Origin: Isoetes taiwanensis | Taxonomy: Eukaryota > Streptophyta > Lycopodiopsida > Isoetales > Isoetaceae | Direction of reading: 5' to 3' | NCBI GenBank assembly: GCA_021234155.1 | Contig: JAJEKV010000005.1 | Coordinates: 18,088,089-18,152,088 of the forward strand | Length of the DNA: 64,000 nucleotides | Shown here: piece after piece, positions 11,781 through 60,803 of the stretch | How positions within the stretch are numbered: position 1 is the first letter of the stretch | How the letters are laid out: each line of letters starts with the position of its first letter | Position numbers and translations under genes: made by a program | The notes under the pieces: generated by a model | The model's database searches: none | Seen by the model: only the letters and a program-made list of their open reading frames with translations | Told to the model about the DNA's origin: nothing

Positions 11781-13736
<1,956 letters not shown>

Positions 13737-14080
13737 TTGAGCATGAGTAAGAGTGGCCCACTGTAGGGCCGTTAATAAGGGGCAAACTAGGCCCAAACTT
13801 ATTGAATTCTGGGAGGAGACATGGGATAGAGGGACAAACTAATAACCCAGTAAAGCACGCAGTTAATTGATCTCAAGTGACAAAGATGGATTAGATCCAA
13901 ATAGGGCCAAAGGTGACATGGGTATCTTGAAGTTTGTTCCAAGCCTGAATCCTTGTGGGAATGTCTCCAAAATAGCAGAAACTTCTGGCAGTAATGTGGT
14001 CATTGTGGCTGATTCTAATGTGGAGATTGTAGTCGACTGACAATGAAGAGGGACTCTAGCAATGAAATTCAACCAAATCG
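13737..14080 (+). pseudogene. Decayed copy of the SAP-like ORF
   Basis: Aligns by eye with 50,137-50,490: CATGAGTAAG, AACTTATTGAATTC, ATGGATTAGATCCAAATAGG and TGGGAATGTC are shared. Several indels and stops break the frame. The DNA that follows (to about 14,430, including ATGCCAAGAGAGTTCAT) also matches the region after the 50-kb ORF. This second copy suggests the ORF belongs to a mobile element. Confidence 0.7.
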
Positions 14081-14584
14081 TTTGCTCGTAGTATTTATAC
14101 TTAGATGGTCTGAATTATCATAAGAGATTATTACCGCAAACTTTATATCCGGTTACAATGGTACGACAATTTTGATCTGTTTCATAAATTATTTAATTGC
14201 AAGAGGTATGATAGCTTTGGGTTGGCTTTTAAAATTACATTATTAATTTTCAAGATATAAATTTCGTGGGTAAAGGGGAAATGCCAAGAGAGTTCATAGC
14301 TTACACCGCTAGCATTAGTATTTCTTTTACCCTCCTTAGGCTAATAAGTGCTATTTGCCGCAGTAACCGAACTCTCTCCCCTCAAGACTCTTTTTGCATG
14401 GATGTTTGAGGAATGTGCGGTTATGAACTATTCATTAATTTTGTTGATACAATCCATATTGGTAAGTATTTACTCTTACTTTGCTATTACTGTTGAAGAC
14501 ATATGGACAAAATATTTGGCAATACATTTGGTACTTCCTTTTAATCCTATTTCTCTTGTAACTTTTTTCATATTATGAATCTGA

Positions 14585-18837: not shown

Positions 18838-19515
18838 GCATGTTGAAAGGAAATACTTGTTTATGTGAATATAAAGAACGACTTGGACAAATATTGAACT
18901 TATCTAGTATTCTTGTTGGACTCATCTGGTTTAGGGCCTGGGTAGTGCGGAGACGTAATTTCTCTACCCGGTTAAGTGACCAAGTTAGGAGTATGGACTT
19001 GGCTAGATTAGACCCTAGGCAAAGGAAAAATATATCTTTGAAACAACATTATCATATTCAAGGATATGAAACTCTATCCTTTTGAGTCCTTTGAATTAAT
19101 TAAACACGATTTACCTATATTGATTTGTTGAACATTATGTTTTCCATTCGCGACCGCTTTACCGTTACATTGGCTATTCTTGGTTTGCTACTTACTTACC
19201 GCTTTGCTATTTCTTGATGCATTGGGAAATTTCAAAAATGACAAAAATTAGCCAGCCGCACGATGACGGATTTCTATGGTTTATGAACATTAAAAATTGG
19301 GCTTCTTGAAACCCGAAAGGGACCATAAAGGTATGAATATCGCCATGTGATTTATCTTTTAGCTTTTAACATAGTAACGATTTATGTGCAACGTAGGGTC
19401 CTAGCAGAATGCTAGGTACCCTGCGCTACCTAGCAATATCTTGAATTTTCTTTTAGGACCCTACTTCCTGCGGTAGGAGGTAGGATGCTATATATATATA
19501 TATAAATATAAATAT
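18838..19515 (+). repeat. Repeat block A, copy 3, with structured end and short TA tail
   Basis: Arms TAGGGTCCTA (19,394-19,403) and TAGGACCCTA (19,454-19,463), then a short imperfect TA run (19,489-19,515). With 14,585 as left end, this copy gives a complete B-C-D-A unit of about 4.9 kb. Confidence 0.8.
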
Positions 19516-19684
19516 ACAAGTTTTTGTACTATCAATGGGATAAAATAAAGGGAAGATTACGAAAATTCTCCTATCATGTAGCTTCTTTCCTACTTCTTTT
19601 GGCACATGAAGTTTTTTAATCGATCCTACGGTGCATGTTCTAATGTGTGCATGTTTCAGTTTGTCTATATTTCAGTTTTCTAAG

Positions 19685-46965: not shown

Positions 46966-49245
46966 GGAGACGGTTGCAACACAAGAGCTAGTTACAGCAC
47001 TTGTGAAGCTCATACCGCTGTAGGAGATGTCGAGTACTCTCACAACACTGGCTCAAAATACTAAGAGCGGTGTAGTCTCCTTTATTGCATTGGTGGCCTA
47101 ACTTGCTATGGCACCACTCTGTACTCTTTTCTTGTACGGATGCAATAGAGCAATATCTTGAAGTGCCCCTATAATTAAGGGCATAATTGGTTGCCAATAA
47201 TACAATGGCACCATGACTACTAAAGCTGTGTATTTGGCTTTAAGGCCTTGTGACGGATTTTACCTATGGTCCTATGTGGATTTAGGTAAATGTGGCCACA
47301 TTGTGTAAAGGCCACAAAAAAATATTTTTGGTAGATATAAGCAATATGCTTATGCTACTTGGAAGCGACATATTGCTTTTAAAGATGTTGGTCTGCAAAA
47401 GACCTTCGAAAATAGTTAACAATGGGAAGTATTGCAAGAAATACCAAACCTTGTACCTTAGGGTCTTGAAAAATTGTTTTGCTTAGTATTTCTAAAGCAA
47501 ACATCATTTGACTAATTGTTGTACCCAAAATATATGCACATGGGTTTTGATTTTAAACACGAGTGCAACTATAGCTTTGTGGGGATATTTTGCAACAATT
47601 GTTGGGGCCAGGATTAAACCTTATACAGGTTGTTCAGGTGGATCCTATGCACAATCTGGCAAGGATTTGAAAATGGCGCACAATTTAATTGTGGAAAACA
47701 ATATTGGCAATTGTGGCAACCTAGTATACTTGAGATGCAATTAGATTGCATTAGAAAATCCTATATAAGGTGACATTTGTGTGGGAAAACTTGGTAGCCT
47801 ATGCTATATTTTACCCCTGAAGCTGACATTTTTTGTTAAATGATATTATCAAATCCATTTGCATCCGGGGCTTTGCCCATCACACTTTGGTGCCACACAT
47901 TTACATATTTGGCTTGATTTGCAAGGTAACCTTAGGGCAAATGATATTTTGGCTTAGGGCATCTTCGAAATTTTGCACGAGCTAAAGTGGTCATTTGGAA
48001 TGGTAGCGAGCCACGTAAATACATGTCGGGTCTCTCACCGGATGGATCTCGGACAAAAGCAACGCATGTTGATGCTTGAGTTGAGCGGCAAAAACCTATC
48101 GGATCCGCATGTAACAACCGAATCTAGTCGGACTTTTTGGGATGCGATTTAGGTGTGCCCTGAGAGGCCTACGCCACGGCAAAAATACTATGAAGTCGGG
48201 CTTAGTCATTTTCGCATGATAATAGTTTCATGGTTAGGCATAGAACCCGATTTGGCATGCCTTTATCTCGTGATACATCTTCTACTGAATTGCATGGCGG
48301 TTTGGAGCTACTATGGCCGATTTGGTTTTGTACAAGCCTTTAAAGGCATTTCTCTCGACGCCTATATTATGGATTTTTGGGAACAACCCTCTTATGAGCT
48401 TGGTGGGCTAAGTCGCTTCATGATCCGACTTCAAGCAAAAGTTGTAAGATATACATTTTATTGAAGGTCCAATCGCCGATTTGCTCTTAGGCAAGATTAT
48501 TACCATCGATTTGCTCGTGTTGGAGCTTTACAGTAATATTTTTACCGGCATAAATAGCTAAAGGGTAATTCATGATCTGTTACCACCATACTATAACAGT
48601 TAGATGGTGACTCTATTATGATTATTCGATACAAACTCCGTGTCTTTATATACAGGACCGCATAAATATGATCTTTCGCTTCATGGTTTCTTTTCGGATC
48701 ATTGCTAATATAGACCTTGGGATTGAATGGCATGGGATCGGTAGTTGGTGAAACAATTTAGCCAATACTATCCGAGAAAACAAGTTGCTTATTTGAAAGG
48801 AGCAATCATAATCAGGTTGGACTTTATTTAGTCTCCTAATACAGTTTTTTGGCTCTGATTTCTATAGTCTAGCCATAAAAGGTTCCATGTCTTTGAACAA
48901 GCATCGCATTCATACAAAGGTTAGGAACGTAAATCGAATTTGTCTCTCTATAAAAGGAAGACCATGCCTTTTAGTATTTATTTAAAGGGGAGATGGTTTT
49001 TAAGATGTATGAGTGATTATGATTCGCTTGTACATTATAACACTTACATCTTAAATTTTGAAAGCCTCTTTTGTCATTCTACTAAAGTAGCTTATTTTAT
49101 TTGCATAACTGTGATTCAGTAAAGCCCAGGAAAGCTTTTCTCGTTAAAACTATTTTTATACGATATGATTATCATGTATACTCTATAATAAAGAATACAT
49201 TTGCAATTGATAATGATATTATCAGGTCCTGCAAATAATCGAGCC
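46966..49245 (+). repeat. Repeat block C, copy 3
   Basis: Begins GGAGACGGTTGCAACACAAG and is most similar to copy 1 over the first 1 kb. It keeps the 0.8-kb segment missing from copy 1 (47,955-48,745). No ORF is conserved with the other copies. Confidence 0.8.
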
Positions 49246-49282
49246 CTAATATCAGGCCCTAATATATCAGGCCCTAATATAA
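49243..49282. repeat. Triplicated GCCCTAATAT motif
   Basis: GAGCCCTAATATCA, GGCCCTAATATATCA and GGCCCTAATATAAT follow one another at the right edge of block C. Confidence 0.8.
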
Positions 49283-49298
49283 TCCACTTCAAACTGAT

Positions 49299-49371
49299 GG
49301 GCATAGCATAATGGTTAGACAACGAATTTGGACTTATAATCTATGGACTGGTTTAGTCCATAGAATAGGAC
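49299..49371 (+). other. tRNA-like sequence with strong hairpin
   Basis: TAGCATAATGGTTAGAC resembles a tRNA A box/D arm and GGACTTATAATC resembles an anticodon arm with UAU. CTATGGACT (49,341-49,349) and AGTCCATAG (49,355-49,363) form a 9-bp stem where a T arm would be, but its loop is only five bases and no acceptor stem is apparent. It may be a tRNA-derived SINE head or a decayed tRNA gene rather than a working tRNA. Confidence 0.3.
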
Positions 49372-50136
49372 AGATAATATTGGTTTAGGGTCTCTTTTGG
49401 CAGGAGCTTTGGCAACCTTGGGACAAGGCTAATATGAATGGAGCATAAATTGCCTATAGCATTGCAGGTCCAAGTGAGCATCTAATAGTGTAACAAAAAG
49501 GTGGCATACACTTGCCCCAATTTGGTTATATCCTAACCCCTATAGTATTATTTGAGAATTGTAATGATGATTACAATAAGATATGAAGGATAGATATGGT
49601 TATGCAATTTTTTACCCCCTAGCATTTAAATTAGGGATTGGTTAAACTAATACTATGATTACAGGCCAAAGGTTGGTGGTAATTCAAATGTGCAGTTGTA
49701 GCATAGGGTATGTGTCGGGGGATGATAGGATCTAGGATCCCAAATGGATATGGGATTTTTATGGTGTAAATATGGACACAAGGTGTTGGTAACATATACT
49801 CGAAATTTGTTACAATAGTACCTACAAAGTTTTTTTCGCTAACCCTAATGTCAAAAAAAAGTAAACCCTAGCGATGGTGGCGTCTACGACAGCCTTGGGC
49901 TGATAGGTGCTGACGGATCCCTAACAAACCATGGATGACCTTTTGATTGTTTGTTACATGCAAAATATCGACAACTCGGATTGATCGAGACAAAAACAAA
50001 TTTGTTATGATCCTTTTCTTAATCTTCTTGTAATATTTGCTTAGAAACGTGATTGGCTTTGGTTTTCTCATAATATGGTTTAACCTCCATGCTATATAAT
50101 AAGATCGGATCCCTCTTCTATGAACACGATTTTTGG
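49372..50136. other. No gene recognised
   Basis: Flanking DNA left of the SAP-like ORF, with no ORF of note. Confidence 0.4.
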
Positions 50137-50490
50137 GCATGAGCAAGGCAGGCGGGCGAGGGGGTGTGCAATAAAGGGCAGACCAGATCTAAACTCATTG
50201 AATTCCTTAGAAGAAATGGCTTAGAGCATAGTAGCCCGCAGCCTACTAAGGCTCAACTGTTAGAATTGTGCAGAGCCCATGGATTAGATCCAAATAGGGA
50301 AAAGGGTGATTCTGGAATTATAAAATTCCTCCCTAGTCTGAATGCATGTGGGAATGTCCCTAGATCTGGTAATACATCAAGCGGCAATGTGGAGTTTGTT
50401 GGAAAATTGAAGAAATTGAAGAAATCGATGATGGAGTGCAACCAAATCAAGGTTCCTGCAATTGAATTGTTTAAATCTTTGGTTTCCTAA
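50137..50490 (+). CDS. SAP-like ORF, possibly ORF1 of the reverse-transcriptase element
   Basis: Open from about 50,164 to TAA at 50,488. Residues TRSKLIEFLRRNGLEHSS and TKAQLLELCRAHGLDPN have the helix-turn-helix spacing of a SAP motif (DNA or chromatin binding), followed by a lysine-rich segment (GKLKKLKKSMMEC). An ATG at 50,139 is in another frame, so either a frameshift or an upstream exon supplies the start. A decayed copy at 13,737-14,080 shows that the segment is repeated. It lies 3 kb upstream of the reverse transcriptase on the same strand. SAP is a pattern-based call. Confidence 0.45.
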
Positions 50491-51690
50491 TCATTTAATG
50501 TAATATTCAAGGTTATAGAGGGTGTAGTACTACAGTCACGGTATTTGTAGGCATGGGGTTACCATGATTAATACAGTTCTGCATGAATTGCTCATTCGAA
50601 ATTAAGATGTAATGTTATAATCCATAGGCTTTTAACATATGGTAAGAGTATATTTAAGTTAAACTGTGGGTAAAGGGCAGAAATGCCAAGAGAGTTCATT
50701 GCTTACCTGTTAGCAGTAGGATTTTTTACCCTCTTAAGGCTAATTAGTTCTATTTGCTGCAGGTAACCGAGCTCTCTTCTCCTGCATCTAGCTCTGTTTT
50801 TTGCATGGAAGCATGAATGATTGAAGAATGTTTTTATGTACTACTGTATTTATATTGTATACAACGTTTATGGTAAGATTTTGATCCCTTCAAGTATAAT
50901 TATTCAACGGAGTAACTGTATGGTAAACTCTTAATCCTTTTTGTGTATTGGTATTTTGAATATTATGGCTGTTTTTTACTGCTTGGTAAAACATGTTTGG
51001 AGCACCTTGAAGTAATTTATGGTAATATAATTATGGATCTCAGCATTTGGCTGCATGATCTCTTATTTTCTTATTCTGTTTCCATATTTGCTTACTTTTT
51101 GGTTCGTCCAGTGGTTTTTAAATTTGCATGGTGTTTTCCTGTTTAATTTTAAGGCTTTGGGTATTGCCCCTCTTTTTTGATCATGCTGGGATTTAACACA
51201 TCTGTTGCTAGTTTTACAGTTCTCTTCAACAGTTTATTCCAAATTGTTTTACAAGTTATTTTACAAGTTATTTAGCAATTTTATGGTACAGCATATTGCT
51301 TGTTGTGGATGAATTCCTTTTGCTACATTTATTTGAAAAAGTAAACATGTATCAAAGTAGTATGGTCAAGGTTAAATAATTGTATTATTAAATGAGTTGA
51401 GCTGGTCCTTATTTTTAGACTTTTGGTCTAAGGTTAAGCTATTATATGGTTACATGATCTCTAAGGGCTCCCTCTTTAGGGTCCAATAAATTCAGTAGTC
51501 TTATTTAGTTAGGTTAAGGCTATTTGAATGTCTAGTCAAGTAGAGGCTTGGTTAGGCCAGTCTATATATCTCCCCACTTTGGATCACTGGTTTTACTGGT
51601 GAAGTCCTTAGAGATCGATGTAGTCATTTATTTTACTTTACATTATTCTTATCCTAATTTTTATGGTTACTAATATGTATTCTGTTCTTT
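50491..51690. other. Intron-like or spacer DNA
   Basis: T-rich, no supported coding frame. The first 0.4 kb matches 14,080-14,430 (ATGCCAAGAGAGTTCAT). Confidence 0.4.
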
Positions 51691-51692
51691 AG

Positions 51693-52072
51693 GAAGCTAG
51701 AGCTCAGAAAAGTAATACTGGTTTCTTCAAGCAACAAGATTCCAATCAACAAACAAATGCACTTTGTTTGGAGGGGTAGACCAGAGTGGCTTCCTGAGCT
51801 TGCTAAACTTGGTTACATGGGGCGGTATCTTAGCCCCTAATAAAAGTCTGGCGGTTTTGGCATGTGTAAAGTTGGTGGAGGTTCATAATCTGCTAATCTG
51901 TAAGGAATGCAATTTGAATGAAGGAGAAATTTCAGTAGTACTTTTTCTTGGGTTTAACAATATGCTGGGACTTGTGGCAAGTTTCAAGGATGCTGATTAC
52001 GCTAAGTGTCATGAGTTGATTATTGATGCATACAAGAAATTGCCCGATGCACATTTGGTCTGGCGATAAAAG
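51693..52072 (+). pseudogene. Possible exon(s) upstream of the reverse transcriptase
   Basis: After a TTCTTTAG acceptor, frames read QKSNTGFFKQQDSNQQTN, then in a second frame WRGRPEWLPELAKLGYMGRY, then in a third LACVKLVEVHNLLICKEC and ADYAKCHELIIDAYKKLPDA. The composition looks like protein-coding DNA, but frame changes and two stops intervene. No family recognised. Confidence 0.3.
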
Positions 52073-52957
52073 GATGTGGTTGATCTTCGGCCTTCATCGA
52101 GGGGCTTTAAAGACGAAAAGCGGAGAACAATCTCAAGTTCACTTATACCCCAAAAGGCAAGGTTAGTACTCCCCTCTTGATAAAGTTAGTGAGCGGGGAT
52201 GCATCATTGGATAATTGTCTCGTTTTAGTATGGATGAAGTGGAAAACAATCCGGTTAATGTAATTAATTATCGAGGTTTTAATACCTCCATGTAATGAAG
52301 AGGATAATATCGTAGGTGTTTGAATCTTATGGATTAAAGGAACTAAATCTTTTTTAATTGTGGTGGATTCCCTTTAATGTCAAATAGGAATGTGGAGATA
52401 CATGCTTTGGCGGGCCAAGCAAACTCGTGGGCTAGCAAAATCTCGGTGTGATTGCTCCAATCAAGAAAGGAATCCTTTATTATGCTTGCCTGAATAACTA
52501 ATGAGGAAGTTACTAAAGCTGAAAGAGATGCTATATCTTTCACTAAAAATATCGAGAAAAGATTAATTTGAATCTACCTTTCCCAATTCAAACCACGGAG
52601 AAAAAATGTACTATTGGGACCGCCCTATATATAGGGCAAAAGGGACACATGGCAAAAACCCGATGAACAGAGAATAGACTTTTACTTGAAACGCATTTGA
52701 GGACTTATTGCCCTTTTTCAAGTGTAATTGTGACAATGTTACGGATGAAAAATGTGTTGATAATATCATATGGTTTGACCATATGGTTTGGTTCATGTTT
52801 AATAACTGGAGAAGATTTGGGTGAGCAAAGTTTGCGAGATGAGGTTTGCATATATATGTGAGATGGTTATCTTGATCCAATTAAGAAAGTTGTCATTTCT
52901 TACATTGGATATCGAAAAGTAAGGGATCTCGTTCTTCAAAATGACTCACAAAAGTTA
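52073..52957. other. Spacer or intron, no gene recognised
   Basis: Short ORFs in both strands only. Confidence 0.4.
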
Positions 52958-53202
52958 GGCCGAGAATGAAAATTGTAACTTTAAACTGGAATTTGGCAAC
53001 TCTAAGACAGTGGATATTATTGAGAAAACTATCAAGTCCAGGAAGTTTTTAATGGATCATTTCCATGATAATAACAGCTTTGGATATGCTCCTGCAAGGA
53101 AGAGAAACCAGAATTCTAATGCTACTGTCAGTGGTATCCTCAAACCTCCAAAGATCTTGAGAAATCAAGTGGGTACAGAAGTGTTAGCTGCAAATAAAAC
53201 AG
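52958..53202 (+). CDS. Probable upstream exon of the reverse-transcriptase gene
   Basis: Open frame from about 52,958 (ENENCNFKLEFGNSKTVDII) through a basic region (APARKRNQNSNATVSG, PPKILRNQ) to a donor ACAG|GTAACT at 53,203. The downstream acceptor that restores frame is uncertain: joining at 53,480 is out of frame, while AGAG|TT at 53,490 is in frame. Basic, low-complexity N-terminal extension; function unknown. Confidence 0.4.
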
Positions 53203-53479
53203 GTAACTCTGCTGGTGCAGACAGCAGCAGTAATATTATGTTTTGAATATAGTATGGTTTACATACTATATACGGCTTATATATTTCTGAATGCTTGACT
53301 GTGCATGCATTGCATGTTGTTCAGGCCTTAGTGCCAATCTATATGGGATCTTTCCCAATTTTTATATGGGAGTTATTCCCCAAATTTTCTTTTTATGGGA
53401 TTTATTCCCAAATTTTGCTACTATATGATATTGAATAAAATATTTTATGTTGCTAAAGCATTGATATTGTTTTAAACAG

Positions 53480-55471
53480 AAAAGAAGAGTTCTTTGCAAC
53501 AGGATTGATGGAAGGATTAAACTACAAGTATTAAAGGAAAAAATTGATAAAAAGTATGTGCATCTTACCTATTTTTCCAAAGTTGTGGATAAAATCAGCT
53601 ATACTAGTGCTTTTAAAAGTGTTATTAGCAGACATCTTGGTAGTATTGGTTATGATGCATGGGAAAACACAACTTTCGGGTGGAGATATATTAGTAATCT
53701 TAAAGATATGTTCTATAAACCCAAAGTGGTCTTTACTAATGATGGTCAGCCAGCTTGTGTATGCTCTATACCAAGGTTGCAGAAATTTGTAGATCCAAGA
53801 ATTGGACATATCCGTACTACGGATATCAATATTATACATTGCAAGGGCTTGAGAAATTGGTTTGCACTTGGGCTAAATTACATCCCTGACTGTCCTTTTA
53901 CTATTACAAAGTATATGGAAGAAATTGAGATTACAATTGAGCAGTTTTTTCATGTGCACAGATTCTCATTCATGATTTTTGATGAACATACTATACAGCA
54001 ATGCAAATTGGATCTGATGAATGAAATAAAATGGTTAGCTAAGTTATTTGTGGAAAGCAATGCACAGATCAGGAAAAAATTCCTTATTGAGGATGAAAGT
54101 GTTATAAAAAATATGGAATGGTTAGTTAATAACCTGTATATTTCAGGGGTTGATAAGGCAGCCAACAATCCAGTGTTTATCTGCCCATTGCATATCAGAA
54201 TGGAAGCTAGTGTCAGACTTAATAGTAATGATTTTTGCAGCAGTACAATCAGTAAAGATCAACTCATTTTACAGGTCCAAACAGAGATTTGCAATCTATT
54301 GGGGGATGGACACATTGGTAGCTTGGAACTCCCGTACCTCCTTGGGATCTTTAAAGCACATAAGTTTGAATATAGATGGATAACAAATGCGCATGATACA
54401 ATTTTTTCCATCACTGCATCTATTGTGGCAGCTGGTTTGAACCTGATACTTGATATATGGCCTTCTATTTGCTTTGAAAGGTGTAGTAAAGCCAATATTT
54501 TCCAAAAAAATAATATTAAAGCTGCATGGGTAGTTAATTCTATATATGATGTTGCATGTAACATTCCAGCAAAAATCAATGATGTCTTTGTGGCAGACAT
54601 TACCAAATGCTATGAAAATATCCCTCTTTATGGGGAGTATGGGATCTGCAATGTGATGGAAAAGGTTAGTTTAATGGCCTGGAGTTTCCAAAGGAAAAGT
54701 CATTCTAGATGTGATATCTGGTACCAAATTCAAAGTAATGGTAAAATTACCATGGAATGGAAGAACAAAGCCCCTGAAAGTAAAGCATGGAAAAAGCTGG
54801 ATAAGGAACTCTTCATTGCACTGAACATATGGCTGCTTAATAATTGCTGGCTTCTTATGCATGATGGTATTTTTAAACAGGTTAAAGGTATTCCTATGGG
54901 GTTTGCTTCAAGCCCAGGATGGTGCAACTTATATTTGGCAGCACTTGAATTGGACTTTATTACTAAGCTTATTAATGAAGGAAGGCTACAAGAAGCTGCT
55001 GCCTTTAAGTTTACGTTCAGGTATATTGATGATTTACTCAGCATTAATAATCCTGCTATTAGAGGATTTCTTGGCCTGTTAAATAAAAATATAGAGCCAA
55101 ATATATATGACTTGGAGCATTTAGTCATCAAAGATGAAACAGTATATTGTAAGAAGGGAGACCTTATTGGTAGGAAAGTTGATTTCCTAAACATGTCTAT
55201 TGAAATTATGGCACATCATACAGGCCTATATAATACTATGAAGTTTGATAAAAGAAATAATCTACCTTTTAAGGTGGCAAGATTCATACATGCTACCAGT
55301 TGCAGGCCATATATTAATGCTTGCAATGTAATTATATCACAAATACAGCCATTGCTTTATGTGCACAACAATCCAATTCGGGCTGCTGCTGATGTGTTGG
55401 AACTTATGAATTGCTTCATCAACAATGGCTTCAGAAAAGATGATGTATGGTTTAAATATCTAGCATTATAA
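53480..55471 (+). CDS. Penelope/RVT-like reverse transcriptase
   Basis: An open frame of about 660 codons with no disruption. Reverse-transcriptase motifs in order: LPYLLGIFKAHKFEYRWITN (motif 2-like), FVADITKCYENIPL (motif 3/A, catalytic Asp), QVKGIPMGFASSPGWCNLYL (motif 4/B), FRYIDDLLSINNP (motif 5/C, YIDD catalytic pair), VDFLNMSIEI, and MKFDKRNNLPFKVARFIHAT (motif 7 region and thumb). No GIY-YIG endonuclease follows. This pattern recalls the Penelope-like/RVT branch of RTs rather than plant LTR or LINE elements. The last residues (YLAL, stop) are encoded by the recurrent terminus starting at 55,458, so the natural C-terminus may be cut. Active-site residues are intact, so the enzyme may be functional. 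Start uncertain (upstream exon). Confidence 0.8.
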   Translation, partial: KRRVLCNRIDGRIKLQVLKEKIDKKYVHLTYFSKVVDKISYTSAFKSVISRHLGSIGYDAWENTTFGWRYISNLKDMFYKPKVVFTNDGQPACVCSIPRLQKFVDPRIGHIRTTDINIIHCKGLRNWFALGLNYIPDCPFTITKYMEEIEITIEQFFHVHRFSFMIFDEHTIQQCKLDLMNEIKWLAKLFVESNAQIRKKFLIEDESVIKNMEWLVNNLYISGVDKAANNPVFICPLHIRMEASVRLNSNDFCSSTISKDQLILQVQTEICNLLGDGHIGSLELPYLLGIFKAHKFEYRWITNAHDTIFSITASIVAAGLNLILDIWPSICFERCSKANIFQKNNIKAAWVVNSIYDVACNIPAKINDVFVADITKCYENIPLYGEYGICNVMEKVSLMAWSFQRKSHSRCDIWYQIQSNGKITMEWKNKAPESKAWKKLDKELFIALNIWLLNNCWLLMHDGIFKQVKGIPMGFASSPGWCNLYLAALELDFITKLINEGRLQEAAAFKFTFRYIDDLLSINNPAIRGFLGLLNKNIEPNIYDLEHLVIKDETVYCKKGDLIGRKVDFLNMSIEIMAHHTGLYNTMKFDKRNNLPFKVARFIHATSCRPYINACNVIISQIQPLLYVHNNPIRAAADVLELMNCFINNGFRKDDVWFKYLAL

Positions 55472-55650
55472 CAGGGGTTTTTTTTCTGTTTTTGTACTGT
55501 TTTCTCTAAGGTTTTCATATGATTTGGTGGTCGTATTCATCCAGGTGTACTAAATAGTATTTCTAGAGTGCACCCTTTTGTTAGCCGTTGATTTTAGAGA
55601 AGGGGCAAATCCCGTGGTGGATATCCTCCCATTATTTTTAGGGTTTTTCT
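55458..55650 (+). repeat. Recurrent terminal repeat, copy at the RT gene end
   Basis: TCTAGCATTATAACAGGGG, then the same 190 bp as 6,027-6,240 (AGTATTTCTAGAGTGCACCC, TTAGCCGTTGATTTTAGAGA, ATATCCTCCCAT). It provides the stop codon of the RT frame and leads into another isolated gene start. Confidence 0.75.
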
Positions 55651-55710
55651 GGTTCTAAGCCGGACGGATAAAAGCTAAAAAAGCTTTATGCCAATGACAG
55701 TGATAATTTG

Positions 55711-55978
55711 CAAAGTCAGCATGGTTGCCCTAAACGGCTATGCTGGCCCCAGGAGGGACGTTAATACCGCGCTTTCCTTGAGCACAGAATTACCGAGTTC
55801 GGCGATGGAGGATTTCGCCGGAGTAGATTGCACCCTTTCGCTCGCAACTGCATCGACGAAGAAAGCTTCAGCTCTACAATTTTACCAGCATTCGATCGAA
55901 TCTTACACACCCCAAAAAAACGACGAGACGTGCTGCAGCGGCATGTCGGAAGCTGGAAATCTGCACATGTTTTTCGTG
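55711..55978 (+). pseudogene. Isolated first exon with a GATA/HAN-type motif
   Basis: Open frame from MVALNGYAGPRRDVNT (ATG about 55,721) through VDCTLSLATASTKK to a plausible donor TTCGTG|GTAAAT at 55,979. VDCTLSL[GA]T.ST is the conserved N-terminal motif of HAN-class GATA transcription factors. The GATA zinc finger, expected in a later exon, is absent; the next coding signal is a minus-strand xylulokinase exon. It follows the same terminal repeat that precedes the BOI-like exons, suggesting capture. The family call rests on one short motif. Confidence 0.4.
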
Positions 55979-56186
55979 GTAAATCATCTACCATGGATAT
56001 ACTGTTTTGTGTTTGGAGGGTTTAGGGTTTAAGAAATAGGGCTAAGTTGTATATTTTGTGTGTTAATCCAAATGCTGGGCATCTTGAATGCTGGGCTTTC
56101 GATTCCATGCAAATAATAAGTTATGCAGGTAACAAATTTATGCGCTTTCAGTTTCAAATTTCCATCCATGAATGCCCTGCAACCCT

Positions 56187-56852
56187 TTACGGTTTAAATG
56201 GAAGAGCTTTATCAGACCAAATGCGCTGTCTGAAATCCATCAGATTCATGCCAGCTCCATCGGCATAATCAATGTCAGCATAATCTCCAAGCAAGAGAGA
56301 TGCCATAAAAGAACTTACTAAAGATATCCTCTCAGTGATATGGTAAGTTTCTGGTTGTTTCTCAAATATTTTCCTTATCTGGGGACCAGTGAAACCTTCA
56401 TATGCTCTAAATCCTGTGAGTTTGGCAACCTCAAGCGCTCCTCCCAATGCAGCTTCAATGGCTCTACATTGAGCACGGGTGCTGCTATCCATCCATATAG
56501 GTGAGTTATTGACTGAAAATGCATCCTGAAGTTGGTGAACAAGACTATCAGAATGTTTTAATTCCTTGAGGTCTTTCAGAGCGCCTTGCTTCCAATAAAC
56601 ACTCCCATGTTGTTGTCCACTACCTGAAATAGCCCTTATCTTTCTTAGCGGAAAAGATGCTCTCTGTAACTTGTCTAACACAAGCTCTAGAGCTGCCACC
56701 CACATAAGAGGAGGTGCTGTAACTCTGCCTTCACCACAGAGCCCTCTGTCAGCACCCCCTTTTGTGTTGTAATGAGGTAATTCTGTGTCAAAATGTACTG
56801 TTTCTGAGCCATGTATCCTAAGACCGGCATCAATGATAACTGCTTTGAGTGA
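56187..56852 (-). pseudogene. Xylulokinase (FGGY family) exon, isolated
   Basis: Minus strand reads continuously SLKAVIIDAGLRIHGSETVH, then ISGSGQQHGSVYW, SPIWMDSSTRAQCR, FTGPQIRKIFEKQ and TERISLVSSFMASLLLGDYA, DGAGMNLMD. These match the N-terminal domain of plant cytosolic D-xylulokinase, which phosphorylates D-xylulose for the pentose phosphate pathway. About 220 of an expected 550 or so residues are present. The first residues (glycine-rich FGGY start) and the C-terminal ATP-binding half are missing. The right end lacks a clear acceptor AG in the right phase; the left end has a possible donor AACC|GTAAAG. Probably a fragment, though a very large gene with distant exons cannot be excluded. 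Confidence 0.75.
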
Positions 56853-57082
56853 TTTGCCATTAAATCATTTGTTTAAAATCCATGAATACGTGTGCAAGGA
56901 AGAAAGATTTGCTTACTGTGTTGAAGAGTCCAGCCCAAGGAAAAGTGCATCCGATTGGGGACATGATCGATCCACTAAAACGGAGGTTAATGATTTTATC
57001 TCTTAAAAGAAAGATGTGAGCATTAGCCGCTCGCAAAATCAGGTCTCTAAATTTATATGCTTTTTAGTGATTATACTTACCA

Positions 57083-57286
57083 TTGCAGGGTTCTCTTCTC
57101 GTTATCTTTAGGTCCTTTCCATGTTCTATTGCAGGGGACATTATTTGTACTTTTCAAAGGCTGGTCAGTCCTGCTAATTGAAGCAGAAATGGAAGGTGTA
57201 TTGCCATCATCCACAGGTGCAAGATCCGTATAGTATCTGGTTGTTGTATCTTCTTCTGAAGGAATCGGGCTTGGCAAGTCACTCAT
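57083..57286 (-). pseudogene. Possible first exon of unknown gene
   Basis: ATG at 57,286 opens MSDLPSPIPSEEDTTTRYYT... (about 68 codons, acidic then basic), ending at a strong donor CAATG|GTAAGT. It lies upstream of the xylulokinase exon on the same strand, but does not look like the start of that enzyme. Unrecognised. Confidence 0.25.
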
Positions 57287-57595
57287 GAATAGGGCAGAGG
57301 CATATTATATTATAATCCAGCCACTATCACACATGGAAATGCTGGATTAGAAAATTCTATTATCTCATTTATGGTGATTATTTATAATTCTATTGCTCCT
57401 CTTTAGAGAAATTTTACTTTGAATATTTGCAATATCTTTTTCCTACTACCTCCATATGGTTCTAGCTTTGCATATTCTGCCCGACCTAAATTTGGTCAAT
57501 GAGACTAGTGATGGTAGAAACATGCCCTTTATTTCTAGTAAGGTCATTGCAACTACTTAAATTGTCTATATCTACACCCCTACACCATCTTTAAG
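57287..57595. other. No gene recognised
   Basis: AT-rich spacer between the possible exon and the foldback element. Confidence 0.4.
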
Positions 57596-58025
57596 GCCCC
57601 GAAGGGGCCAAAATTTTTTTTAGTTAACACAAACTATTAACATATAACTAACATTATTAACACAAACCATTGCATTTGACACATTTAAATTAAAATCCCC
57701 CTTAAACCCCCTTTGGTTTGGGTGCATATTCACACGGGGGGTTACGTAGGGCAGCGAGAGCCTCAAAAAATGTACAATACATGTACAAAATTAACACCAT
57801 TAAGTACATTGTCTCAAACCTTATAGTATTTTGCAAACCTTAATATACAGTATACAAAAACTTGTACATGCATACCCCACAAACGAGGATCGCTATGTAT
57901 GGTCCAGATCTTGGAATAAAGGGCAAAATATGCCCATCCAAGGCTCGTTCAAGTAACCCCCCGCGGTGAATATGCACCCAAACCAAAGGGGTTTAAGGGG
58001 ATTTTAATTTAAATGTGTCGATATG
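57596..58025. repeat. Foldback element copy
   Basis: Left arm starts after GGCCCCGAAGGGGCC and a T-run and includes CACATTTAAATTAAAATCCC and CCTTTGGTTTGGGTGCAT. The right arm contains GCACCCAAACCAAAGGGG and ATTTTAATTTAAATGTGTCG. Loop about 190 bp with CATACCCCACAAACGAGG. Confidence 0.85.
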
Positions 58026-58840
58026 ATATCGCCAATTGTTATGTTTGAGCTTTTTACAAATCCAAATCAGCATGAGGTTTTGGTCTGCTTATTATGGACT
58101 AGTCTGTGTACTAAGGATCAAGATAATTGGTCTGCTTATTTGGAACGGAATACATAGATATTATATCAGAAGCATCTTCTGGTAATATGGAAGGTTTTTT
58201 GCCAGCATTTTGTAATAGCTGATCACTAGGATGTTATTGACAAAAGATACTAATTTGATATGAGAAATATGTTACATTTTTGTGATTCTTTGGATATATA
58301 GGGTTAGTAGTATGATCATATCTGACTACAATTTGGTTTTTGGTTCATATTAGCCTTATGTTGACTAGTAAAGGTTCAGTGGACCTCAATTATAGTTTGT
58401 TTCAGCCAATGGCTTGCATGGATATAGGTTGAATATAAAACACTTAAGGTGATTCTCTAAGGCAGTAATAGAGGTTATATACATGGTTAATTGGTCTTGA
58501 TTTGATTTAATTTACTTGGCAATGGAATACTTAACATTGAAACCCCATTCTTTATATTTTTTTTGATAAGTCATTCCTTTTGATTCTGTTTTGATTATAT
58601 TTTAAGGATCCTAGGATAGCAGTAACAAATGTATGATGAATAATAAGATAAATCCTGTAGGAGGTATTCCTGTGACAACCAGACTAAATATCAAGATATA
58701 AAGGCAAAGCAAAAAGCATTGATATTATAGATATAAAGTGGATAAAAACAACAAAAGATTAAGCCAATTGTGATAAATAATTGGCTCATGGACAATATCT
58801 TAACATAAGGTAATCATATGTTCCTTTTTTTTGGAAAAAA
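58026..58840. other. No gene recognised
   Basis: AT-rich, no coding signal. Confidence 0.4.
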
Positions 58841-58843
58841 AAG

Positions 58844-59746
58844 CTAAGCCTTGTTCTTCCGAACGCGGTGTAGTGCAGCACCTTTCAGGATCTTCATATC
58901 CCACTCTAGTTTGTTTCCATTATAAGTAAATTCAAGAACATCTCCAAGGGTTAAACCAAACAATTTCTTAAAACTGTTCCAACCCACTCCTAGGCTGACT
59001 ACGCTACTTTTGGCTGAGGGGACTCTTTTGGTTTTCGGTCCAAGAATCACAACGCAGTATATCCCCTTGGTGGACTTCGCCACTTGTTTTCATTCTCTAG
59101 TACCTAGTAATAATAAAAAAATCTCTACTGAGAACCTTAGCACAATGCATGGAATTTAAAAATATAAATATACCAGGCCTCGGTTTATATTGGCTCTGAG
59201 TAGTGCGACACGAAATGGTTTATGAGATGGTGGTTCATCTTCGTCAGAAATGTCATCATCGGATGTATCTAGTTCGCTACATTTGACGGGTTCAGTAGCA
59301 CCATGCTGATTTTTACACACCGCCGATTCTTAGTAGGCTTCTTTGTGGATTGGAACTTCAAGTTGCCGATTACCAATAGGTTTCATAGCGATAGTTTCCA
59401 TCGCAGTCACAGGCGATTAAGCGAGTCCCATGGTTAGACAAACTACATAAAAGTGCGGTCCCTTCTACCATGTTGTTTCCGCCGAAATGACTCCCGGCCT
59501 TGGTGAAGAATGTTGACCACCCACGGTGGCTATATATATGGAATACTCCTTCGATTTGGTCCCATGCCAACAAATATCTCGATCTCGGCGAGCAATACTC
59601 CCTCGGCTTCTGAAAAATCTCGATTACGGTTAAGACTTATATCTCTATAAAGGAAATAGTCATGAAAGAATGTATCGTTTTTTTTTTTTTTTTTGCTCAC
59701 CAAACAAATGACCGAACTTGACATCTACTAAAAACAACATCGCCAT
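58844..59746 (-). pseudogene. B3-domain-like pseudogene, paralogue of the 28-kb gene
   Basis: Same three-exon structure as the intact gene. Exon 1, 59,746-59,701 (MAMLFLVDVKFGHLF, donor GTGAGC); exon 2, 59,609-59,174 (acceptor TTTTTCAG; GVLLAEIEIFVGMGPNRRS, later SDDDISDEDEPPSHKPFRVA, LLRANINRGL, donor CTG|GTATAT); exon 3, about 59,098-58,844 (KWRSPPRG, GVGWNSFKKLFGLTLGDVLE). Exon 1 to exon 2 joins in frame. Exon 2 then has a frameshift near 59,375 and a TAA near 59,330, and exon 3 has a one-base frameshift near 59,055, so the copy is dead or carries errors. Conserved splice sites support the gene model at 28 kb. Confidence 0.75.
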
Positions 59747-60110
59747 AGCCCGAAAATAGGAAGGAAATATGGACTTGGAATGTTGAAAGGCGGCTTCGGC
59801 CGGGAAATAGCTTATAAAATGAAGATTTATTAGGATTTAATGTAATTATGATATATCTACTCTATTTATTGCTTGTGTAAGGCCTATTTGTAAGGCCTAA
59901 GATGGTACCATCATTGTTAGTAATTAATTGTTGGGTATTATCTTATTCTAAATTTTCTTTATCACTACTAGTTTTTTTTAAAAAAACTCCACCATTGGCT
60001 CATATAACCCTCTATAATCTATTCCCTTTGGTTTAGGACCATTTTTAACTTTTAGTTGGCAGGAGGGTCCCTTTGCTAGCAAAGGGATCCTCCAATCCCT
60101 TTTGTTAACA
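59747..60110. other. No gene recognised
   Basis: Upstream region of the B3 pseudogene, then AT-rich spacer. Confidence 0.4.
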
Positions 60111-60162
60111 TATGGGACCTTATCTGCCTTCCGGTAGGAGGTAGGAATATATCTCTTATATA

Positions 60163-60803
<641 letters not shown>

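Follow-up and report, generated by a model that had tools for sequence, protein, structure and literature searches.

The reverse transcriptase frame and its surroundings

Here we describe an open reverse transcriptase (RT) frame in the genome of the lycopod Isoetes taiwanensis, together with the element that contains it, which by its anatomy is probably a high-copy Penelope-like element (PLE). The frame lies in a stretch of 64,000 nucleotides (contig JAJEKV010000005.1, positions 18,088,089 to 18,152,088 of the forward strand), referred to below as the window and used for all coordinates; the element is read from its plus strand. According to the listing of open reading frames (ORFs) of the window, 668 codons are open from stop to stop at 53465-55471(+). 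The RT exon within it, exon 3 of the element (53480..55459), was delimited from the frame, Pfam, family matches and motif positions, and begins at a conserved CAG|A acceptor (53479|53480). Motif A (ADITKCYENIP) starts at 54593 with its aspartate as residue 378, motif B (GIPMGF) is found at 54887 and motif C (YIDD) at 55022. Further stretches are DKAANNP (54152), KAHK (54353), FLNM (55184) and SCRPY (55298). The N-terminal DKAANNP, the KAHK that precedes motif A, the FLN behind YIDD and a thumb with SCRPY...SQ are, in our reading, typical of Penelope-type RTs. The same start gives an RT of 694 amino acids in the sister copies L002 and L003, while in the window the last codons and the stop are supplied by a 2.56 kb insertion and the true end resumes at 58020-58075.

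A preliminary description of this locus had reported about 660 open codons with motifs A, B and YIDD and no GIY-YIG domain behind them. Both statements agree with the frame described above, in which Pfam detected no GIY-YIG match and only a weak RVT_1 match across motifs B to C (E = 2.9e-4, below the cut-off). The intron proposed just upstream of the RT is likewise suggested by the conserved splice signal at the acceptor. However, the segment 52958-53246, which had been included in the RT, instead closes ORF1, a second gene, degraded here, of which intact copies encode about 500 amino acids.

Copy number and anatomy of the family

Relatives were sought in the genome to which the window belongs (1.66 Gb, 1110 contigs). 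With the RT as query, the best 66 scored of 4623 first-look candidates were 58-100% identical, most of them over the whole length, and with the ORF1 of locus L024 as query the best 84 of 3466 candidates were scored, both counts being lower bounds that are biased to good copies. The RT frame is free of stops in 52 of the 66 scored matches, and near-identical RT copies are present on other contigs. Because at least 66 relatives of this kind exist, the frame is not a product of chance. A single-copy cellular rvt gene, one of the two possibilities raised in the preliminary description, is ruled out by this copy number together with the mobile build described below. No relatives were confirmed in viral contigs or prokaryote genomes, and no account of the plant family was seen in the open-licence literature.

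RT and ORF1 of the family are under purifying selection. The ratio of nonsynonymous to synonymous substitution rates (dN/dS, NG86) has a median of 0.084 for the RT (range 0.043-0.225; 37 of 190 pairs computable, the remainder saturated) and of 0.089 for ORF1 (range 0.037-0.301; 39 of 153 pairs computable, the remainder saturated). L019 and L024 are mosaic elements: this pair has a dS of 0.18 in ORF1 and of 0.77 in the RT, which suggests template switching or recombination.

To define the anatomy of the family, 28 copies were examined (L001-L008 over about 5 kb each, L009-L028 over about 10 kb each), and six were extended to both ends. These six full elements measure 10,033-10,810 bp and consist of a left pseudo-long terminal repeat (pseudo-LTR, pLTR) of 3.0-3.4 kb, an internal part of 4.0-4.1 kb and a right pLTR of 3.0-3.4 kb. 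The two pLTRs of one element are 94.6-99.1% identical; between elements the best value is 81.6% over 902 alignable bp. No pLTR pair was found in L017, L020 and L021 or in L001-L008, the latter being too short to show one. The pLTR holds a leader exon (exon 1, 105-113 amino acids), and its junction with the internal part falls within intron 1; exon 2 (ORF1, about 500 amino acids) and then exon 3 (RT, about 694 amino acids) are located in the internal part. In L018, L024, L026 and L028 the RT stop is separated from the right pLTR by 118-124 nt, with a hairpin, H, directly before the pLTR, and this 3' region is longer in the subfamily of the window copy.

Two hallmarks of PLEs were found. First, the pLTRs extend over the beginning of the coding sequence, as seen in the six full elements and in a further partial pair in L028. 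Second, copies stand in full or partial tandem, with two RTs 6.75 kb apart on C976 and five junction matches about 4.2 kb apart on C223, where one unit was examined. Judged by this anatomy, the family would be a high-copy Penelope-like retrotransposon of this plant genome. The Penelope-like nature of the RT, as first described, is backed by the anatomy and by the presumed Penelope-type order of its motifs.

The window copy spans about 49245 to about 60190. Its left pLTR (49245..51568), delimited by blastn, is slightly short at the 5' side, where the edge is set by another repeat ending at 49242; 49271-49953 match the right pLTR of L011 (84%), 50133-50356 the exon 1 region and 51453-51566 L012. 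The leader exon (50139..50451), placed from the sequence and from exon-1 conservation in other loci, has a broken frame. In intron 1 follows a conserved block a (50667..50776; nhmmer, alignment A4), and a second one, block b (51457..51614; nhmmer, covariation in alignment A3), is predicted to form a folded RNA across the pLTR/internal junction. Block b includes UAUAUAU (51563..51569), the putative start of reverse transcription and end of integration, as judged from block b copies at element ends and from TA outside them. Exon 2 (51693..53246, with the acceptor TTTAG|GAA read from the sequence) is degraded by many insertions or deletions (indels) of 1-2 nt and is followed by the putative intron between ORF1 and RT (53247..53479), of which the 3' splice site is conserved. 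Breakpoints relative to L002 place the repeat insertion in the 3' end of the RT at 55455..58019. Comparison with the same copy identifies the detached last RT codons (58020..58075), in which frame-breaking indels are already present. The 3' region of the subfamily (58076..60114) was assigned from matches of 58020-59509 to L002 and of 58835-59890 to L013. It is followed by hairpin H (60115..60144; nhmmer, 4.4e-9), which other copies have ahead of their right pLTR, and by a TA-rich right end (60145..60190, from the sequence). No long match to a right pLTR was detected by blastn beyond 60185.

Leader exon and splice sites

A pattern search of the 20 10-kb loci located an open exon 1 in 16 (all but L019, L024, L025 and L026), and in all 16 its conservation stops at PNQ|GT. 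Nine more exon-1 starts are located downstream of an RT, five of them without the PNQ end. Of 21 ORF1s, 17 have an exon 2 acceptor in phase 0; three loci begin inside the exon, and L017 gave none. For exon 3 a phase-0 CAG| acceptor is present in 23 of 28 copies, the pattern having missed L004, L005, L018, L019 and L020. ORF1 ends at its own stop codon. An in-frame splice from ORF1 to the RT was considered and rejected, as no donor stands at a common position; a phase-0 AG|GT precedes the stop in 3 of 19 ORF1 tails, not all at one place. Since there is no common ORF1 donor, exon skipping is proposed, and the splice phases weakly suggest that leader exon 1 is joined either to ORF1 or to the RT. 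On the other hand, 7 of 19 ORF1 tails hold a phase-0 GT that scores at least as high as the weakest exon-1 donor, on a scale on which the exon-1 donors themselves reach only -0.9 to 2.5. Exon 1 contains GRPEG...NKG, which we take to be AT-hook-like, and a SAP match below the cut-off (best E = 0.0093, 5 tested).

Conserved RNA blocks and element ends

The alignment of block b (A3) comprises 20 sequences including that of the window and gives six helices with 52 pairs, 32 of which have changed on both sides. In this structure 96.2% of the cells are paired; shifting the partner strand by 1-3 columns lowers this to 28-52%, although such a control is favourable to a structure that came from the same alignment. 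Among 500 shuffles none reached four of the five measures and one reached the fifth, a comparison in which related sequences can outdo shuffled ones. The window copy's own block b folds with a z of -3.74. In the predicted fold, the UAUAUA end point is unpaired; helix 5 lies on one side of it and the returning strand of helix 3 on the other. Block a (alignment A4, 21 sequences) has a mean identity of 84%, above that of block b, and two-sided change in only 1 of 15 pairs. A known ribozyme, hammerhead included, was not detected, as cmscan found no Rfam ribozyme family in 6 fetched loci (E<=5). Block a and block b are also present in L046 and L047, two RT-less units of about 4.2-4.5 kb that represent one tandem cluster each, L046 with an exon-1-like piece and L047 with a short ORF1-like piece.

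The left pLTR of all six full elements gives way to internal sequence at ...TATAT|(A/T)CCC, the very point at which the right pLTR halts and genomic sequence follows. All 8 end-type copies of block b found by nhmmer (L012, L029, L032, L034, L035 twice, L038 and L040) break off at position 107 or 108 of the 150-position model. TA continues outside the end in five of the six full elements: alternating TA extends over 2, 8, 139, 16, 12 and 5 nt to the right of E18, E24, E26, E25, E09 and E22, respectively. To the left of these elements and of L028 it extends over 14, 3, 9, 71, 64, 0 and 36 nt, a tract that is partly the element's own because the pLTR itself opens with TA. In 5 of 7 elements (E18, E24, E26, E09 and E22), furthermore, at least one flank shows TAGTACAAARACTTG(TA)n or the complementary sequence, which is one half of a near-palindrome, with mismatches in E24 and E09 and with both halves in E22; the exact pattern occurs in 6 of 47 loci. 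Thus, the TA runs and near-palindromic flanks argue for insertions that favour TA tracts, often at the centre of this repeat, and the family appears to insert into TA-repeat DNA.

Beside E25, at L035 903-1479, two truncated copies of block b face each other across a TA tract, recalling the inverted pLTRs of other PLEs. An association with telomeres was also considered and gave no sign: (TTTAGGG)2 is absent from the 28 loci, and 23 of the 28 copies are more than 500 kb from a contig end, with 5 of 28 within 100 kb.

A proposed route of copying

Taken together, we favour, with a probability of roughly 0.6, a Penelope-like element that would start reverse transcription internally at the UAUAUA of block b, primed by (TA)n, and that would share its leader by splicing. 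This proposal builds on the anatomy, the conserved RNA fold, the common end point, the TA tracts at the ends, purifying selection and copy number, and from these we infer promoter, splicing, RNA binding, priming and end resolution as follows. A promoter assumed to lie in the left pLTR would make one transcript. Spliced RNA would be translated, with leader exon 1 joined to ORF1 or, by exon skipping, to the RT, so that to judge from the splice phases both proteins would share an AT-hook/SAP-like leader. Unspliced RNA, still containing block b of intron 1, would be the template, and the only RNA to be copied, since block b would be removed on splicing. The RT would bind block b, and the 3' end of a (TA)n tract would pair with the unpaired UAUAUA and prime cDNA synthesis from within the RNA, in the manner of the internal template of telomerase. 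Inserts of the form pLTR-internal-pLTR could arise from reading a full unit and a second pLTR, or from a jump to a second template, and the far end would be resolved by the element's own (TA)n.

The more specific combination of RNA-templated targeting as in telomerase, by UAUAUA-(TA)n pairing and without a dedicated GIY-YIG endonuclease, with an alternatively spliced leader and an intronic start signal is put forward tentatively, and as a whole it is less likely to hold than to fail. If true, it would plainly explain why PLE copies retain introns, since the signal at which copying starts sits inside one.

ORF1 and a possible endonuclease

The strongest alternative is a PLE with an N-terminal endonuclease, in which a derived GIY-YIG domain in ORF1 would nick (TA)n and target-primed reverse transcription would follow. 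Elements of this type, Chlamys and Naiad, are reported by Craig (2021) to combine an N-terminal endonuclease with a CxC motif, an insertion in the fingers domain and a bias for microsatellites. In favour of such an origin, ORF1 contains a conserved IGQKGHMAK..E.R..FYL.RI segment (LYIGQKGHMAK in most copies) and then, before the RT, a CxC such as KCNCD. The distance from motif A to motif B is 97 amino acids in the RT, near that of the telomerase RT (TERT) of this genome (at most 118), and would fit an insertion in the fingers. On the other hand, Pfam searches (E<=1) found no GIY-YIG in 21 ORF1s or 20 RTs, in agreement with the lack of an endonuclease noted at the outset. In a genome-wide GIY-YIG search, in which the best 150 of 263 candidates were scored, all 121 listed matches are at least 85 kb from each of the 66 listed RT matches. 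An hhalign comparison of ORF1 with three GIY-YIG proteins of the same genome gave a probability of 1% (E 0.049, 20 columns). Since this alignment covers only 20 columns and ORF1 has both LYIGQKGHMAK and CxC, a derived endonuclease may still be hidden there; we consider this alternative unlikely, yet clearly the first of those weighed against internal priming by (TA)n.

The sole recurrent Pfam match of ORF1 is DUF6917, a domain of unknown function (9 of 21, best E 0.0027). Foldseek gave no match at E<=0.001 for ORF1 and RT, and VIA-align none for ORF1, results that say nothing of the fold because the AlphaFold models, built with 20-21 close relatives, are of poor quality. PDB sequence profiles gave nothing relevant, and NCBIfam had no match for three RTs and two ORF1s. 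Three of the listed GIY-YIG matches (L041 3600-3965, L042 3297-3683 and L043 2831-3262) are separate frames of 122-144 amino acids with a conserved GYNNL..NPS.SKK.W tail, and that of L043 has a helicase-like frame (PIF1/Helitron by eye) at a distance of about 1.4 kb.

Uneven decay of the window copy

Over 1965 nt the RT of the window and that of L002 differ by 36 substitutions and by no indel (dS = 0.065). In the same comparison ORF1 shows 41 indel events in 1247 aligned nt and the 3' region 33 in 1.5 kb (summed bins), that is, 0 events in the RT as compared to 74 in about 2.7 kb of ORF1 and 3' region. Changes specific to the window copy were counted among L001-L003, L004 being left out as its 5' part does not align. 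The RT has no such indel and 27 substitutions in 1965 nt (1.4%), 15 silent and 12 replacement; ORF1 has 19 indels and 49 substitutions in 1145 nt (4.3%), and the 3' region 17 indels and 89 substitutions in 1316 nt (6.8%). From the lower number of indels and substitutions we conclude that the reading frame of the RT was maintained under constraint, whereas the other parts of the copy drifted. Thus, the earlier observation of a frame retained amid decay holds within one and the same copy, and of the two causes then offered, selection or recent arrival, each finds support, the latter in the low dS to L002 and the former in the indel-free RT with its fewer copy-specific changes. The likeliest explanation for a constrained RT beside a decayed ORF1, though perhaps only a partial one, is in our view selection in a mobile lineage that borrows the ORF1 protein.

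A contribution of patchy assembly-consensus errors, which would account for most of the contrast between broken ORF1 and clean RT, seems improbable. The many indels of 1-2 nt among the 41 ORF1 events and the high ratio of 19 window-specific indels to 49 substitutions would be in line with such errors. However, random errors should strike the RT equally and would not lower its number of substitutions; L002 and L003 are also without RT-specific indels, and L004 has two with its frame still open. The same contrast between ORF1 and RT is seen in L010/L011. In this pair, 23 small indel events fall into four 250-nt bins of ORF1, above the level of nearby non-coding DNA, and none into the RT bins.

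Still less probable is that the window copy or the small subfamily L001-L004 represents a domesticated RT serving the host. The indel-free RT, the graded copy-specific substitutions, the 15 silent against 12 replacement changes and the dead ORF1 would all be expected of such a gene. Yet the element around this RT shows a pLTR, both conserved blocks and the hairpin; the RT itself has near-identical copies on other contigs and has lost its C-terminus to an insertion. Selection can equally act in a mobile lineage supplied with ORF1 protein from other copies, and the sister copies L002-L004 were picked by RT score, which favours clean RTs.

Other features of the window

The 2.56 kb insertion carries a xylulokinase-like frame on its minus strand (56190-56864; Pfam FGGY_N, 1.9e-11), and segments from its ends are found again at other places in the window. 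The minus strand of the longer 3' region (window 58835-59890; L002-L004 and L013) resembles by eye a piece coding for a B3 domain. A second, partial copy on the plus strand (12136..14377) consists of a pLTR, 90.4% identical to L010, with block a at 14267-14377. At 19460-19531 a hairpin-H-like sequence leads into (TA)n and one of the two palindrome halves seen at targets, and is probably the right end of another related element.

Comparison with known elements

Overall, the element is ordinary in kind and unusual in build: it is Penelope-like in its anatomy, has no detected GIY-YIG domain and appears to be directed to TA repeats. A plant long interspersed nuclear element (LINE) or LTR element was rejected, as a strong RVT_1 or RVT_2 together with EEP, RNase H or integrase was not among the Pfam matches of the window, of 20 RTs and of 21 ORF1s. 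Long direct terminal repeats might recall a true LTR retrotransposon or a DIRS-like element with an odd RT, but this is very improbable, as a coding exon lies in the repeats, which terminate at TA tracts, clusters of tandem copies occur, and Pfam (E<=1; 20 RTs, 21 ORF1s) detected no integrase, RNase H, protease, RVT_2 or recombinase. With Chlamys and Naiad the family may share CxC before the RT, a possible insertion in the fingers and microsatellite targets; it differs from them in having no recognisable N-terminal GIY-YIG and in keeping ORF1 and RT in separate frames.

PLEs have pLTRs with the first codons of the ORF, can retain introns and can carry host genes (PMC3846280), and many contain a hammerhead ribozyme (PMC11167929). 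The purified Anolis PLE is described as initiating reverse transcription on AT-rich DNA from an internal RNA site, the pLTR/ORF junction, which is not homologous to the cut DNA (PMC11167929). PLEs with a C-terminal GIY-YIG domain (Penelope/Poseidon and Anolis PAc) resemble the plant family in pLTR repeats with the coding start, (partial) tandem copies and AT-rich targets; retained introns and a start of reverse transcription in the RNA of the pLTR/coding junction are reported for them and would be expected of the plant family too (PMC11167929, PMC3846280). In contrast to them, the plant family is without a detected GIY-YIG domain or hammerhead, its junction sits in a putative intron, its putative start site equals the TA repeat, and its pLTR of about 3 kb compares with about 0.2 kb reported for rotifer PLE families (PMC11167929, PMC3846280). 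PLEs are described as patchy in plants, and endonuclease-deficient ones are named in Selaginella and conifers (PMC9033089). Like these and Athena, the plant family has a PLE-like RT in a plant and no recognised GIY-YIG (PMC9033089); unlike endonuclease-deficient PLEs, it gives no sign of telomere association.

With telomerase the family shares the resemblance of RT motifs and, as proposed here, an internal RNA template complementary to a DNA end, whereas no Telomerase_RBD is among the Pfam matches of the RTs, and the plant element would copy itself as a whole instead of a short repeat. One plant genome holds a diverse Penelope-like family with many open RT frames. If true, its UAUAUA template would link the internal initiation of PLEs to telomerase templating, in a system where RNA and target are both defined and copies are many.
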